A DNA stretch of 64,000 bases from Corallococcus macrosporus DSM 14697 (GTDB lineage Bacteria > Myxococcota > Myxococcia > Myxococcales > Myxococcaceae), in assembly GCF_002305895.1 (NCBI RefSeq), contig NZ_CP022203.1:536501-600500 (forward strand). Direction: 5' to 3'. The notes below the pieces were generated by a model. That model ran no database searches and was not told the origin of the DNA. It was given only the letters and a program-made list of their open reading frames with translations. Within the stretch, counting starts at the first letter, position 1. The number at the start of each line of letters is the position of its first letter. This document shows, one piece after another, positions 4,493 to 17,373 of the stretch. The position numbers and the translations under genes are program-made.

Positions 4493-5140
4493 TCAGGGCC
4501 GCCAGTGCAGGTCCCCCGAGGCGCAGACGCGCACGCCCTGGGCGCACTGCTCGGTGAGCGTGTCGAAGCCCAGGTACACGTCACCCTCGATGGCGTTGAG
4601 CTCCACGGGGCAGCTATAGGCGCACCCCACCAGCGCCTCCTCGCGCAGCGCCGCCAGGCCGCCGCCGCTGGCCGCGAGCTCGTCGCAGGACTGCAGCGTC
4701 GCCGTGGTGCGGACGATGATGAACTCCTCCGGCGCCTCGCTGGAGATGGAGGCGCCCGAGAGGCTGCGCAGCGCCTCGCGGACCGCCTCCCGCGCCTCTG
4801 CGCGAGGCAGGCCGGTGATGTCCGGCAGCGGGGCGGGGATGCACACGCGGTGCTCGGGCATCACCGCGCAGTCATGGTCCGCGCACCAGCTCACGAGCTG
4901 CCCCGAGCGGCACCCCGGCAGCCCCCCGAGCCGGACGAAGTCGATGACGAGCGAGGTGGGCACGTCCCCGCCCCCGGCGGGCGCCGCCCGCGAGAGCACG
5001 TAGGCGCCGTCATCCTCCCGGCACAGGAAGCCGTCCAGCCCCTCGCCCTCCGCGCCGAACGTGAGCCGCACCTGCCGCACCTCGTTACACCCGGTGAGCA
5101 GCGCCAGGGCCAGGAGCCCCTCGAGGATGCGTCGTCTCAA
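4493..5140 (-). CDS. Cysteine-rich lipoprotein of unknown function
   Basis: A 215-residue lipoprotein: arginines at the start, a hydrophobic run, and lipobox LLTGC near residue 18. The start is a TTG at 5140 that overlaps the stop of the upstream gene (TTGA), with GGAGG 7 bases before it; no ATG fits the signal peptide. The mature part has about ten cysteines (for example FLCRE, PGCRSG, CADHDC, RVCIP, VGCAYSC), suggesting disulphides in an exported domain. I recognise no family. It is the downstream partner of the PEGA-type protein at 5137 and lies end to end with the FHA activator, with only three bases between the converging genes. Confidence 0.8.
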   Translation of the reverse strand: MRRRILEGLLALALLTGCNEVRQVRLTFGAEGEGLDGFLCREDDGAYVLSRAAPAGGGDVPTSLVIDFVRLGGLPGCRSGQLVSWCADHDCAVMPEHRVCIPAPLPDITGLPRAEAREAVREALRSLSGASISSEAPEEFIIVRTTATLQSCDELAASGGGLAALREEALVGCAYSCPVELNAIEGDVYLGFDTLTEQCAQGVRVCASGDLHWRP

Positions 5141-6342
5141 AACCCCACCTCCGTTCGAACAGGCCGCTGCCAGAGCAGGGCGGTGGTGGCCGCGCCCGCG
5201 ATGACCGCGGCCACGCCCACGGCAATCCAGAAGTCCCGCCGCTGGTAGAGCGCCGGCGCGGGCTCGACGACCTGGCCCTGGATGAGCAAATCCCTCAAGA
5301 CGCCCTCCGCCGTCCCGTGGAGCTGCTTCGCCTCGCCCTGGCGCTCCGTCCGGGCCGCCGCGCGCCCCTGGAGGGCCAGCGCGCCCCGCAGCCGGTAGCC
5401 CTCGCGCTCGGCCTCGGCGGTGAGCAGCACCAGCCGCGGCGCCCGGAGCGCGGTGGACAGCAGGCTCAGCGAGCCCGCCGAGTCCAGGTTCGCCAGGGAC
5501 TCGCCGTAGTTCGCGGACCACTGGCCCGCGGCCAGCTCGGGCGAGGCGGGCAGCGTGGTGAAGGCCACGGCGAGCTCCGGGCCCCTGGCCGAGATGACCT
5601 GGACCGCGAACTGCCGCCCCTCCGCGTCGACGCGCACCACGTGTCGTCCTTCCAGGACCTCGAGTGAGCATGGCGCCATGCAGACTCCGGGCCTCCCATC
5701 CAGGGAGATGCGCGCGGGGCTGGAGTCGGCGGTGATGCGCAGCGTGGCGCGCCCCCGCGCCGCGCCCTGCTCCGCGCCCGCGACGAGCACGCGCCCCACC
5801 TCGGGCGGCAGCACGCCGATGTCCGCGGGCAGCTCCAGCCCGAGGACGCCCAGCTCCGCGGCCACCTGGAGGGCCGCCTCCTCGCGCCGCAGTCCCACCT
5901 GACAGGCGACCTGCCAGAGCAGCAAGCGGGCGGCGAGCGCGCGGTGTCCCTGGCTCAGCGTCCGGGACAGCACGCCCTCATCGCCGACCTGCTGGAGGCA
6001 GTCCGCGAACTCCGCGTGGATGTAGTGCCGCCGGGCCTCCTGCAGGTGCCGCTCGACCTCCAGGAGCTGGACGTCCCCCCCGGGCCGGGTGGTGGAGGCG
6101 GGGAGCTCGGCGAGGCGCAGCGTCACGGGGAGGCCTGGGGGCCGCTCCCGGGCCCACGACTGGACGGAGGCGCGCGCCTCGGGGGCCCCCACGACGAAGA
6201 GGGTGACCGAGGGGCGCGCGGCGGGGGGCTCGGTCGCGGACGAGGCGGCGCCCCAGAGCGCCAGGAGCAGCGGGGCGAGGCGGAAGCTCGGGGAGGAGGG
6301 CCACGCGCGGCGGCGGTATATTGAAGGTTGGGACTGACTCAC
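5137..6342 (-). CDS. PEGA-type exported protein with C-terminal membrane helix
   Basis: A 401-residue protein with an N-terminal signal peptide (about residues 1-36, ending in a small-residue cleavage region), a helical middle section resembling a repeat scaffold (about 90-190), and a PEGA-like beta domain (about 200-260) with ARISLDGRPGVCMAPCSLEVL and a following HVVRVDAEGR. A hydrophobic helix near 375-392 lies just before a short basic tail. The start is a GTG at 6342 with GGAGA upstream. PEGA modules usually occur on envelope proteins and kinase outer domains in this group. It starts back to back with the kinase gene at 6375, with 32 bases between starts, and is coupled to the lipoprotein downstream, so the three may form one sensing unit. 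Confidence 0.85.
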   Translation of the reverse strand: MSQSQPSIYRRRAWPSSPSFRLAPLLLALWGAASSATEPPAARPSVTLFVVGAPEARASVQSWARERPPGLPVTLRLAELPASTTRPGGDVQLLEVERHLQEARRHYIHAEFADCLQQVGDEGVLSRTLSQGHRALAARLLLWQVACQVGLRREEAALQVAAELGVLGLELPADIGVLPPEVGRVLVAGAEQGAARGRATLRITADSSPARISLDGRPGVCMAPCSLEVLEGRHVVRVDAEGRQFAVQVISARGPELAVAFTTLPASPELAAGQWSANYGESLANLDSAGSLSLLSTALRAPRLVLLTAEAEREGYRLRGALALQGRAAARTERQGEAKQLHGTAEGVLRDLLIQGQVVEPAPALYQRRDFWIAVGVAAVIAGAATTALLWQRPVRTEVGF

Positions 6343-6374
6343 CGGAGAGCGTCTCCAAGGTTTGGAGTGAGAGC

Positions 6375-8033
6375 GTGGAGTGGGGTGGCCGTTATCGACT
6401 GACGCGACAGCTCGCGCGAGGCGGGATGGGCGAGGTCTGGGAGGCGAGCGCGACGGGGGAGGGCGGGTTCGCGCGGCGGGTGGCCATCAAGCGGCTCACC
6501 GCCGAGCATGAGCAGAGCCCGTCGCAGGCGCGGATGTTCCTCGACGAGGCGCGCATCGCGAGCCGGCTGCACCACGCCAACATCCTGTCCATCCTCGACT
6601 ATGGCGTGGTGGAGGGCGTCCCGTACCAGGTGCTGGAGTACGTGGACGGCGTCGACGCGGAGCGGCTGCGGCAGCGCGGGCTGGAGGTGGGCGAGGACTT
6701 CCCGGTGGAGCTGGCGCTGCACGTTTGCGCCGAGGTAGCCCATGCGCTCCAGTATGCCCATGAGGCGAAGGATGGTGCGGGGCAGTCGCTGGAAATCGTC
6801 CATCGGGACGTGAGCCCCTCGAACATCCTGGTGTCGTGGACGGGGGACGTGAAGCTGGCGGACTTCGGCATCGCGCTGGCCAGGGACAGGCAGGAGCGGA
6901 CGCTGGCGGGGCTCACGAAGGGCAAGCCGGCGTACATGCCACCGGAGCAGGTGACGCGGGGCGAGCTGGATGGGCGCTCGGACCTCTTCGCGCTCGGGTG
7001 TGTGCTGCACGCGCTCCTGACGGGGCACAGCCCGCTGGCGGGCGAGGACCGGATGGCGGACCTGCTCGCGGGCAAGGAGCTGGCGCTGTCGGACGCGCTC
7101 CCCGCGGATGTCCGCGACCTCGTCGCGCGGGCCGTCCGGAGGGCGCGGCATCAGCGGTTCCAGAGCGCGGCGGCGTTCGCCGAGGCGGCCAGCGGGGCGC
7201 TCGCGGCCCGGAGCGGACGCGCCGGGCGCGCGCTGCTGTGCGATTGGATGGCGCGGGTCCGGGCGAAGGAGGAGGCGGCCAGGGCCAGGCCCGTCTCGGG
7301 GTGGGCCGGCTCCTTCCTGGAGGTGGAGCAGCTCCTGGGCGGAGTCGTGCCGGCGGCGGAGGAGGCAACGGCGGGCGGCGCCACGCCGCCACCTCGAAGC
7401 GAGCCGCGCGCCCCGCGCTGGCGGAAGTGGCCATGGCTCACCGTGCTCGCGCTGGGCGGGCTGGCTGTCGTGAGGCCCTGGAGGCTGGGGCAGGGAGACG
7501 CGCCGCCGCCCGTGGCGCGGTCCGTCTCCGCTCCTGAACCGGCGCCGCGCGCTCCGGAGGAGGTCGCCCTGGCAGAGCGCTCGCTGTCCGCTCCCGCGGA
7601 GGTGGCGGAGGAGGTCGCCCCGGCAGAGCGTTCGCTGTCCGCTCCAGCGGAGGTGGCGGAGGAGGTTGCCTCGGCAGAGCGTTCGCGGTCCGCTCCAACG
7701 CTGGCGCCGGTGACGCGCGCGGCTCCCCGAGCGCAGGAGCCGACCGCGAAGCGAGCGGAGGTCCGCGCTCCTCCGCGCCCGGCGCAGGTCGGCTCAGGGG
7801 CGCTGACGGTGGGAGGCGAGGGGGCCTTGCGCGCCGTGGTCATCATCGACGGCGAGCGCCGAGGCCACGCCCCGATGCTCATCGAGCTCCCCGTGGGCGA
7901 GCATGTCCTGGAGCTGAAGACGCCCGACGGCCACTGGATTGGTCCGAAGCGAATCCAGCTCACCGAGTTCCACACCCCCGCCGCCCCGCTGCGCTGGGTG
8001 GTTCCTGTGGCGCAGGGGGCTTCAGGCAAGTGA
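6375..8033 (+). CDS. Membrane Ser/Thr protein kinase with PEGA-like C-terminal domain
   Basis: A 552-residue eukaryotic-like kinase. It has the glycine loop GGMGEVW (17-23), the ATP lysine K39 in VAIK, the catalytic loop HRDVSPSN (143-150), DFG at 163-165 and YMPPEQ in the activation segment; the HRDxxPxN form is common in bacterial kinases. A probable transmembrane helix at about 352-367 is followed by an Ala/Pro/Glu linker containing an imperfect 19-residue repeat (SLSAPAEVAEEV and variants), then a PEGA-like module near 475-530. The GTG at 6375 is chosen because GGAG sits about 8 bases upstream; a TTG at 6321 in the same frame would overlap the divergent gene. It overlaps the next small gene by GTGA. 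Confidence 0.93.
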   Translation: MEWGGRYRLTRQLARGGMGEVWEASATGEGGFARRVAIKRLTAEHEQSPSQARMFLDEARIASRLHHANILSILDYGVVEGVPYQVLEYVDGVDAERLRQRGLEVGEDFPVELALHVCAEVAHALQYAHEAKDGAGQSLEIVHRDVSPSNILVSWTGDVKLADFGIALARDRQERTLAGLTKGKPAYMPPEQVTRGELDGRSDLFALGCVLHALLTGHSPLAGEDRMADLLAGKELALSDALPADVRDLVARAVRRARHQRFQSAAAFAEAASGALAARSGRAGRALLCDWMARVRAKEEAARARPVSGWAGSFLEVEQLLGGVVPAAEEATAGGATPPPRSEPRAPRWRKWPWLTVLALGGLAVVRPWRLGQGDAPPPVARSVSAPEPAPRAPEEVALAERSLSAPAEVAEEVAPAERSLSAPAEVAEEVASAERSRSAPTLAPVTRAAPRAQEPTAKRAEVRAPPRPAQVGSGALTVGGEGALRAVVIIDGERRGHAPMLIELPVGEHVLELKTPDGHWIGPKRIQLTEFHTPAAPLRWVVPVAQGASGK

Positions 8034-8380: not shown

Positions 8381-9358
8381 TCACTTCACCGCGTCGGCGT
8401 CCTGGGGCACCAGCGGGAGGGGCGCCTTCGCCGTCTGTTGCGCGGGGGTGGCCAGGATGGCCTCCACCGGTTCGTCGGGTCGCGAGGCGGGCTCCGGCTT
8501 CATCTGCGTGCACTCGGCCGCGTTCCGGACGCCAAGCCGCTTCTTGCCCGATGGCGAGCGCGGCTGATTCACCTTCGCCAGGGTGGCCGACGATGACAGC
8601 TCGCACATGGGCGGCGTGTCAGCGCCGGTGTCGATGACGGGCTTCATCACCTTCGGCGGTGGCGCCGTCGGGGTCCCCTTCGACGATGAGCTCCTCCGCG
8701 AGGAGGACGACACGTCCCCCCGGAGCGCCGCGTCGCTGCGCTGCGTGGCGTCCGTCCGCGTGTTCGCCAGCCCCTCGCTGCTGGAGGTGGAGGTGGCCGT
8801 CGCCACCGCCGAGGGCGCGGGCTTCTTCGCCGCCTCGCCCAGCGCCTCCGCGAGCAGGTTGTTGCTCTGGTGCATCTGGTCGCGCGCCCGCTCCATGCTG
8901 GCGTCGTGACGCGTGAGCTGCTCCGACATCGTGGCTTGATGCTGATGGCGTTCCTTCTCGATGCTCGCCTTCAGCGTGTCCCGCTCCCGCGCCACCTCTG
9001 ACAGCCGCTGCTCCAGCGCGCCCTTCTCCGTGTTCAGGATGTTCTCCGCCCGAGCCATGCAGGCGGAGAGGACCTGCTCCTCGGACTCCCGCTCGGGCAG
9101 GGCATCGCCCCGGTTCCACGCCATCATCGCGGTGCTCTGCCAGCGGTAGTCCGTGTGCATCACGCACTCCTGGACCAGCCGCGTGAGCCGGTCCTCGGAC
9201 CAGACGGGCACGGGCCGTGCGCAGGGCCCCACTTCCTCCTTGAGCGTGGAGGGAAAGGCCCGGGTCTGCTTCACCCAGCAACCGTCCCGCTGCTCCATCC
9301 GCACCGAGGTACACGCGCTCGCCACCATCGCGAGCGACACCGCAGCCACAAGCCTCAT
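8381..9358 (-). CDS. Coiled-coil lipoprotein of unknown function
   Basis: A 325-residue lipoprotein: the signal peptide starts at the ATG at 9358 (GGAGGG just upstream) and ends in lipobox VASAC. Residues about 100-180 have a heptad-like pattern rich in Glu, Arg, Gln and Leu (EQRLSEVARERDTLKASI), which suggests a coiled coil. The next 60 residues are a Ser/Thr-rich low-complexity linker, and the tail is Pro-rich. Four cysteines lie outside the coil. I know no function for it. Related layouts occur in myxobacterial envelope proteins, possibly as scaffolds or spacers. An in-frame extension to 9433 exists but would bury the signal peptide. Confidence 0.82.
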   Translation of the reverse strand: MRLVAAVSLAMVASACTSVRMEQRDGCWVKQTRAFPSTLKEEVGPCARPVPVWSEDRLTRLVQECVMHTDYRWQSTAMMAWNRGDALPERESEEQVLSACMARAENILNTEKGALEQRLSEVARERDTLKASIEKERHQHQATMSEQLTRHDASMERARDQMHQSNNLLAEALGEAAKKPAPSAVATATSTSSSEGLANTRTDATQRSDAALRGDVSSSSRRSSSSKGTPTAPPPKVMKPVIDTGADTPPMCELSSSATLAKVNQPRSPSGKKRLGVRNAAECTQMKPEPASRPDEPVEAILATPAQQTAKAPLPLVPQDADAVK

Positions 9359-9603: not shown

Positions 9604-10389
9604 TCAGCGCAGCAGCGCTTCCGTGTGGCTCAGCAGCTCCGGCCCGCCAGGCTGTCCGTGCCCGGGAACCACCACGCGCGCCTCGGGAAACCGCTGCCGC
9701 GTCCGTGCCAGGCTCGTGGGCCAGGCCGCCACGTCCGCGTCCTCCACGTTGCCCAGGTTCGTCGCGGCGCCGTCCTTCACGAAGCAGCCGCCGAACAACA
9801 CGCCGCTGTCCCGGTGCCACACGACGATGTTGTCCTTCGCGTGGCCCGCGCCAGGGAAGAAGAGCTCCAGGGAGCCCACCGTGCTCGACTCGGTGAACGT
9901 CTCCCAGGGGCCCTGTCGGCCCAGGGACGTGGCAATCCGCGCCGTCTCCGCGAGCCCACGAACGGGAATCCCATGGGGAACGAGCGCGGGCACGCCCCCG
10001 AGCCGATCCGCGTGGAAGTGCGTCACCACCGCCGCGCGGACCGGACGCCGAAGCGTGTCCCGGGCCCAGTCGAGCAGCAGCGCGCCCTGCCGTGCATCCC
10101 AGCCCGTGTCGACCAGCAAGGACGTCTCACCCTCCTCGATGATGAGCCCGTTGGTGGAGACACGGCCGAATGGCTCCAACGTCACCTCCGTGACGTGCAA
10201 CCAAACGCCAGGCGCGAGCTTCCGCACGCTCACGTCATCCGCCAGCACGTACGCGTCCGGCCCCTGGGGCTGCGCCTCCACGGGGAGGTTCCGCTCGACC
10301 GCCGCGGCCGGCGCGGTTCGGGTACAGGCGGTGCTCAGGGTGATGAGGAGCGCGCCGGCACAAGCCCAACGCGGGGGAGCAAGCATCAT
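9604..10389 (-). CDS. Subclass B1 metallo-beta-lactamase, lipoprotein
   Basis: A 261-residue zinc hydrolase of the MBL fold that would open beta-lactam rings. The full B1 ligand set is visible: H124-x-H126-x-D128 (THFHADRLGG), H183 (GAGHAKDN), C202 with the substrate-binding lysine K205 (GGCFVK) and H244 (PGHG). The Cys ligand and HxHxDR pattern separate B1 from B2 and B3 and from general MBL-fold hydrolases. The N-terminus is a lipoprotein signal with lipobox STAC (Cys22), so like NDM enzymes it is probably anchored in the membrane facing the periplasm. It begins with two adjacent ATG codons; GAGG lies 10 bases before the first. The gene appears monocistronic, and no mobile element is next to it. 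Activity on carbapenems is inferred from the family only. Confidence 0.93.
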   Translation of the reverse strand: MMLAPPRWACAGALLITLSTACTRTAPAAAVERNLPVEAQPQGPDAYVLADDVSVRKLAPGVWLHVTEVTLEPFGRVSTNGLIIEEGETSLLVDTGWDARQGALLLDWARDTLRRPVRAAVVTHFHADRLGGVPALVPHGIPVRGLAETARIATSLGRQGPWETFTESSTVGSLELFFPGAGHAKDNIVVWHRDSGVLFGGCFVKDGAATNLGNVEDADVAAWPTSLARTRQRFPEARVVVPGHGQPGGPELLSHTEALLR

Positions 10390-15985: not shown

Positions 15986-16504
15986 TCAGCGCGTCGAGCT
16001 GTTCTCCGGCAGCGGCGTGGGCGGCGTCAGCCGGTTGTCCGGGTCCGTCATGCCGCTGCCGCCGGTGCCCGGCTCCAGCGTGGCGTCGTCATCCACGTCC
16101 AGCTCATCGCTGTCGGCGGTGTCGAGCGGCTCGACGTCACCCGCGCCGCCCGTGCCCGGCTCGCTGCTCATGTCCGGGTCGAGGTTCGGGTCCACCTCCG
16201 TGCCGGTGCCACCGGTGCCGGGGGGCATCGTCGGGTCCGCGTTGGGGTCCACGCTGTTCGGGTCCATGGGGTCCGTCTCGGGCGTCAGCATCGGGTCATC
16301 CATGCCCGTGCCGCCCGTGCCGGGGGACATCGTGGTGTCCGTGTCGGTGGTGGTGCCGGTGTTCGGGTCGCTCATCGTGCCCGTGTCGGTGGTGTCCGTC
16401 GTTTCTCGGGCCGCCCCCGAGTCGGACTTACAGGCGGTGCCGAACGCGAGGGCACCGGCGGCGAGAGAGGCGAGGACGGCCTTCGTCTTGAGGAACTTCG
16501 TCAT
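15986..16504 (-). CDS. Acidic repeat lipoprotein with PGTGG motifs
   Basis: A 172-residue lipoprotein with a classic signal (MTKFLKTKA, then a hydrophobic run and lipobox GTAC). The start ATG at 16504 has GGAGAA 7 bases upstream. The mature part is low-complexity: Asp, Thr, Pro and Gly dominate, and the motif PGTGG followed by T, A or S and G occurs four times at intervals of roughly 25-30 residues (MSPGTGGTGM, MPPGTGGTGT, SEPGTGGAGD, LEPGTGGSGM). It is strongly acidic and almost certainly unfolded. Similar repeats occur in the lipoprotein at 17490 and the small protein at 15600. Function unknown; a surface spacer or divalent-cation binder is possible. Confidence 0.82.
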   Translation of the reverse strand: MTKFLKTKAVLASLAAGALAFGTACKSDSGAARETTDTTDTGTMSDPNTGTTTDTDTTMSPGTGGTGMDDPMLTPETDPMDPNSVDPNADPTMPPGTGGTGTEVDPNLDPDMSSEPGTGGAGDVEPLDTADSDELDVDDDATLEPGTGGSGMTDPDNRLTPPTPLPENSSTR

Positions 16505-16659
16505 GGTTCGTTCTCCGGTGGTTTGGTGTCTGCCTGCTGCTGGCCGGGAACGTGAGCAGCCGCTGAGCGGTCTGCTAGAGGCCCCTCCTGTGCTCGCCTG
16601 CTCTCCAGGCGGCGGCGGGAATGAAAGACGAAGGCGCCTTGCCTCCGAGGCGTTGTTCT

Positions 16660-17373
16660 TCAGGTGTCGCTGTTGGGGCCCTCCAGGCGCGGGCGGTCGT
16701 CTCCCCGCTTGCCCAGGGCACGTCGCTGGAGGGACTCGCGCCAGCGCGGCGTCAGCAGGGGACACGCGGCCAGCGCCGCGGCGGCCTCGGGGGCGTGGCC
16801 GTGCATGGCCTGGTTGGCGCAAGCGACGGTGAAGGCGGGGAAGGGGCGCTCCAGCAGCGTCACCGCGTCCCCCTCCTGGACACGGCCTTCCTCCAGCACG
16901 CGGTAGTACCAGCCGGTGCGGCCCGTCTGCTGAATCAGCAGCGACAGGTCGCGGCGTCCCCAGCGGCGCGCGGGCTTCCAACAGGGCTGGCGGGGCTGGG
17001 ACACCTGCACGCGCGCGTGGCCCACGCGCAGCACGTCCCCGATGCAGACGTCCGCCTCCGTGCCGTGGGAGAACACCCAGTTCTCACCGAAGGCCCCCGG
17101 GCCGATGTCCTCGCGCGAGAGGTGTTCGCGCCAGAAGTCGTAGTGCGTGGCGGGATAGGCGAAGACCGCCTTCTCCGGGCCGCCGTGGACCTTGCGGTCC
17201 GCCTGGCCGTCTCCGGCGAGCCCCGTCACGGACAGCCACACCGGGCCTGTCACTGGCGCCTTGAAGATGGCGCTGGTCCAGGGCCGCTCCAGCGGCGAGG
17301 CGGCCCCGGCCACGCCCAGCTCCCGGGGCAGGCCCACTCGCAGCGACAGCAGGCGCGTCACGGGGGTGTCCAT
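16660..17373 (-). CDS. MOSC domain protein, YiiM-like
   Basis: A 237-residue cytosolic protein with a MOSC domain (about residues 40-160) followed by a C-terminal helical extension, the layout of the YiiM group. Diagnostic stretches are GDGQADRKVHGGPEKAV, AFGENWV and SQPRQPCWK, the last holding the conserved cysteine thought to bind the sulphur of the molybdenum cofactor. YiiM-type proteins use molybdenum cofactor to reduce N-hydroxylated bases; the exact substrate here is not known. The ATG at 17373 gives the usual N-terminus but lacks a clear ribosome site, so the start is less certain. It sits between two PGTGG lipoprotein genes on the same strand. Confidence 0.9.
   Translation of the reverse strand: MDTPVTRLLSLRVGLPRELGVAGAASPLERPWTSAIFKAPVTGPVWLSVTGLAGDGQADRKVHGGPEKAVFAYPATHYDFWREHLSREDIGPGAFGENWVFSHGTEADVCIGDVLRVGHARVQVSQPRQPCWKPARRWGRRDLSLLIQQTGRTGWYYRVLEEGRVQEGDAVTLLERPFPAFTVACANQAMHGHAPEAAAALAACPLLTPRWRESLQRRALGKRGDDRPRLEGPNSDT

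Follow-up and report, generated by a model that had tools for sequence, protein, structure and literature searches.

Is the metallo-beta-lactamase (MBL) gene at 9604-10389 a long-standing part of its myxobacterial chromosome or a recent arrival, and does its product serve as a defence against beta-lactams? The window, by which we mean the whole 64,000-nucleotide stretch of DNA that was analyzed, carries this gene on the minus strand as an open reading frame (ORF) that begins with ATG and encodes 261 amino acids. A long open frame also runs along the opposite (plus) strand of the same stretch, and homologues were found for the minus frame only. The gene occurs as a single copy in the 8,973,512-base contig, which is the single contig holding the window. 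A scan for promoters and terminators found none, the sigma-70 consensus being a weak test at 71% GC. The match of this ORF to its family lies far beyond chance, which confirms it as a subclass B1 MBL gene. We are almost certain that it is a native, vertically inherited chromosomal member of the MYX family, whose product would be exported, probably as a lipoprotein, carry two zinc ions, hydrolyse beta-lactams, carbapenems among them, and protect its host. The gene and its principal features are:

9604-10389, minus strand: blaMYX, encoding a MYX-family subclass B1 metallo-beta-lactamase of 261 aa (NCBIfam NF047964 match, ORF)
10324-10389, minus strand: N-terminal signal peptide and putative lipoprotein Cys (residue 22, at LSTAC followed by T), with Thr at +2 and Ala at +7 (read directly)
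10003-10020, minus strand: H116-x-H118-x-D120-R121 motif (HFHADR, residues 124-129; alignment with VIM, NDM, IMP, DIM and AFM)
9841-9843, minus strand: zinc ligand H196 (residue 183; alignment)
9775-9786, minus strand: zinc ligand C221 (residue 202) and substrate-binding K224 (residue 205) (alignment)
9658-9660, minus strand: zinc ligand H263 (residue 244; alignment)

We assigned the protein to its family with hmmscan against NCBIfam. The blaMYX model, which has 261 positions and a curated cut-off of 520 bits, matched at 567.2 bits (E=3.9e-171), with residues 1-261 lying on profile positions 1-261. The general NCBIfam subclass B1 model also scored above its cut-off of 200 (246.1 bits, E=3e-73). 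The next best models after blaMYX were PYX (NF047975, 377 bits) and COR (NF047974, 315 bits), and both scores fell under the cut-offs of those families (473 and 450, respectively). FIM-1 was the best PDB match (E=2e-51), ahead of many chains of VIM, CfiA and NDM. Because more than 100 solved homologues are present in the PDB, we take the B1 fold of the MBL as fixed.

Alignment of the MBL with VIM, NDM, IMP, DIM and AFM was used to number the ligands. The zinc ligands H116, H118, D120, H196, C221 and H263 correspond to residues 124, 126, 128, 183, 202 and 244, and R121, K224 and N233 are all kept as residues 129, 205 and 214. With the Zn1 ligands (H116/H118/H196) and the Zn2 ligands (D120/C221/H263) all present, the enzyme falls in subclass B1. 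A sequence-only reading of this DNA had named that subclass and reported six zinc ligands and the substrate lysine. The alignment agrees on the ligands and the lysine (K224 is residue 205), and the HMM score, the ligands and a B1-versus-B3 tree agree on the subclass. Subclass B3 (HxHxDH) was rejected, as position 121 of the MBL is Arg rather than His and position 221 is Cys. None of the genome's B3 HMM matches falls at the MBL locus, and a PF13354 search found no class A beta-lactamase in the genome.

The full-length match to blaMYX above its cut-off means that the family is not new. MYX-1 (gene G12, group B1-1) from Myxococcus xanthus was found in RefSeq bacteria and, when expressed in E. coli, was Carba NP positive for imipenem hydrolysis (Berglund et al. 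2017, PMC5637372). The name MYX derives from Myxococcus xanthus, according to a 2023 nomenclature paper (PMC10740994). Since MYX-1 was assayed in 2017, the hydrolysis experiment proposed along with the sequence-only reading had already been done for a family member. We base MYX membership on two things, the NCBIfam model and the 87-90% identity shared with orthologues from Myxococcus genomes that are named or of the same genus; the named orthologues are those of M. xanthus AM003, M. sp. CA023 and M. vastator. The window protein has in common with MYX-1 and its family the full-length match above the curated cut-off, the genus, the length class and the ligands, and differs from these orthologues at about 10-13% of residues. 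It is an ordinary representative of a chromosomal family that was already known and named. The earlier description of the gene as a candidate environmental relative of clinical B1 enzymes is right about the relationship but not about a new candidate, given the named MYX family and the published activity of one member. The gene adds one more chromosomal member to the known environmental reservoir of B1 carbapenemases. Its main use is as background when myxobacterial resistance genes are interpreted, and it brings no new threat or mechanism. What our analysis adds is small: a two-gene linkage, a single loss, a +7 alanine that fits a published matrix-sorting rule, and an apparently mislabelled 'Comamonas' genome.

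A B1 gene scoring above the family cut-off is present in 23 of the 27 genomes of the same genus (Myxococcus) and in 59 of the 195 genomes of the phylum, and Corallococcus has a diverged form of the MBL (51-53% identity). The close relatives share the gene order glgX - methyltransferase - MBL - hypothetical lipoprotein, and parts of it persist through the genus. The last gene of this series lies in the window as follows:

8381-9358, minus strand: uncharacterised predicted lipoprotein of 325 aa, with its ATG at 9358, downstream of the MBL (ORF, synteny)

This predicted lipoprotein had no Pfam or NCBIfam match. Its gene adjoins the MBL gene in every MBL-bearing genome of the genus (23/23) and is absent from the four that have no MBL; outside the genus, its relatives occur away from the MBL.

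In the four MBL-lacking genomes (G008, G009, G014 and G015; loci L115-L118), the conserved flanks are separated by ~40 bases, compared with ~2.3 kb holding exactly both genes in a relative, G011. glgX is likewise missing at this locus in the four. A tree of the methyltransferase gene places them in one clade (100/100), which groups with two MBL-bearing genomes when rooted at the midpoint (98/96). These data point to a clean deletion of both genes as a single loss in one Myxococcus clade. The two genes may cooperate, or they may simply have been deleted together. All four B1-lacking genomes of the genus carry a subclass B3 MBL elsewhere in the genome, compared with a full-length B3 enzyme in 5 of the 23 B1-bearing genomes. 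Mutual replacement of B1 and B3 was rejected, because the four B1-lacking genomes are one clade and so represent one event.

Where would the enzyme act? The signal peptide suggests that the MBL would be exported through the inner membrane and is probably a lipoprotein. The lipobox rule is L(-3)-[AST](-2)-[GA](-1)-C(+1) (PMC3222651). The S-T-A-C of the MBL fits this rule at -2, -1 and +1 and has Ser instead of Leu at -3, whereas the L-S-G-C of NDM has Leu there. The sequence-only reading had likened the two lipoboxes, which overstates the likeness, as they differ at -3. Lipidation is uncertain, since Ser suits position -3 of a lipobox poorly. Nearly all relatives from the genus retain the Cys together with a small residue at -1, and usually have a small residue at -3 as well, which favours lipidation and makes the signal less NDM-like. 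Lipidation of the window MBL is thus plausible from its sequence. The mature protein has Thr at +2, where inner-membrane lipoproteins have Lys. Sorting to the extracellular matrix goes with Ala at +7 in M. xanthus (7/10 matrix lipoproteins), and for FibA this residue is essential (PMC3222651). Eight of the nine distinct sequences in the MYX clade carry Ala at +7 when the alignment is read by eye, which is weak evidence because the linker is alanine-rich. It would be a long shot that enzymes of the MYX clade go to the matrix and, together with the always-adjacent lipoprotein gene, provide a shared swarm-level shield against beta-lactams.

In B1 enzymes, two zincs activate a hydroxide for ring opening, and Lys224 and Asn233 position the substrate. 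By homology to these enzymes, the window MBL would bind two zinc ions, one through H116/H118/H196 and the other through D120/C221/H263, and a zinc-activated hydroxide would open the beta-lactam ring. Lys224 and Asn233 would place the carboxylate and carbonyl of the substrate. From this analogy we infer that the MBL hydrolyses beta-lactams, carbapenems among them, and its substrate range is predicted in the same way. The most likely role of the MBL is defence, in which it would protect the myxobacterium from the beta-lactams of soil competitors. Alternatively, the main job of this B1-fold enzyme might lie outside defence, for example on another lactam or a cell-wall intermediate, and the hydrolysis of beta-lactams would be secondary. 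Several features would suit such a job: the gene sits on the chromosome, it is widespread in a predator, its linkage to the gene of an uncharacterised lipoprotein is tight, and no BlaI/BlaR-type regulator was found among the adjacent genes scanned. However, all catalytic and substrate-binding residues of clinical B1 enzymes are kept, imipenem is hydrolysed by the family member MYX-1, and the MBL was lost from a whole clade without anything taking its place at the site. A main function outside defence is therefore very unlikely. That loss also indicates that the MBL is dispensable.

GC at codon positions 1/2/3 of the MBL gene is 0.73/0.53/0.87, and the third-position value (GC3) is in line with the 0.84-0.95 of the seven genes around it. 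Codon use had been described as normal, and GC by codon position indeed matches that of the neighbouring genes. The nine MYX sequences cluster together (100/99) in a tree of 49 B1 rows, nested among other Myxococcus and Myxococcaceae B1 enzymes, and the mobile enzymes VIM, NDM/AFM and IMP/DIM stand apart on long branches. When six B3 enzymes of the phylum were used as the outgroup, B1 and B3 split at 100/100. This comparison with known B1 enzymes, suggested earlier as a check, places the window MBL on the B1 side and inside the MYX clade, the latter also at 100/100. These data show that the MBL in Myxococcus is an old, mostly inherited trait that was lost in one clade.

The window MBL has the subclass B1 fold and ligands in common with VIM, FIM and NDM. 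Judged by sequence identity, it has no special kinship to NDM (33% in the alignment), and VIM, the nearest mobile enzyme tested, is closer at 38%. At position 121 NDM carries Lys and the window MBL Arg, and the lipobox of NDM is the canonical LSGC, that of the window MBL STAC; VIM and NDM are plasmid-borne, whereas the window MBL is chromosomal. A tblastn search of 72,556 plasmids matched 2,710 records, in none of which identity to the MBL reached 60%; the annotated ones among the matches listed were VIM, AFM, NDM, DIM and IMP. The phage records searched held no MBL match. We found no sign that the MBL gene has been mobilised. The myxobacterial genes and the clinical enzymes are related, but the former are neither the source nor the immediate donors of the latter. 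That the gene is a recently acquired resistance gene has next to no chance of being correct: nothing in the genus speaks for it and Myxococcaceae outside the genus do carry relatives at other loci, whereas GC3 is host-like, synteny is conserved through the genus, the gene tree puts the Myxococcus rows together, and plasmid copies (at the 60% identity level) and phage copies are absent. We reject recent transfer on synteny, GC3 and the lack of plasmid or phage copies, and the earlier view of the gene as native and chromosomal stands.

One database record could mislead, as it might suggest that the MBL had been transferred to Comamonas. This record (locus L005, BNCN01000008.1) is labelled 'Comamonas sp. 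KCTC 72670' and encodes glgX, the methyltransferase and the MBL at 95%, 88% and 82% identity, respectively. Such a transfer was rejected because the contig is Myxococcus-like in gene order and protein identity. The coordinates of this locus recur in a same-genus genome, G024. The 'Comamonas' genome looks like a mislabelled Myxococcus genome.

Two further observations concern other parts of the window. A divergent pair is formed by the genes for a Ser/Thr protein kinase (6321-8033, plus strand) and a PEGA-domain protein (5137-6342, minus strand). An ORF at 15986-16981 (minus strand) encodes a predicted lipoprotein of low complexity, rich in Asp, Thr and Pro, in which PGTGGTG-like motifs recur.
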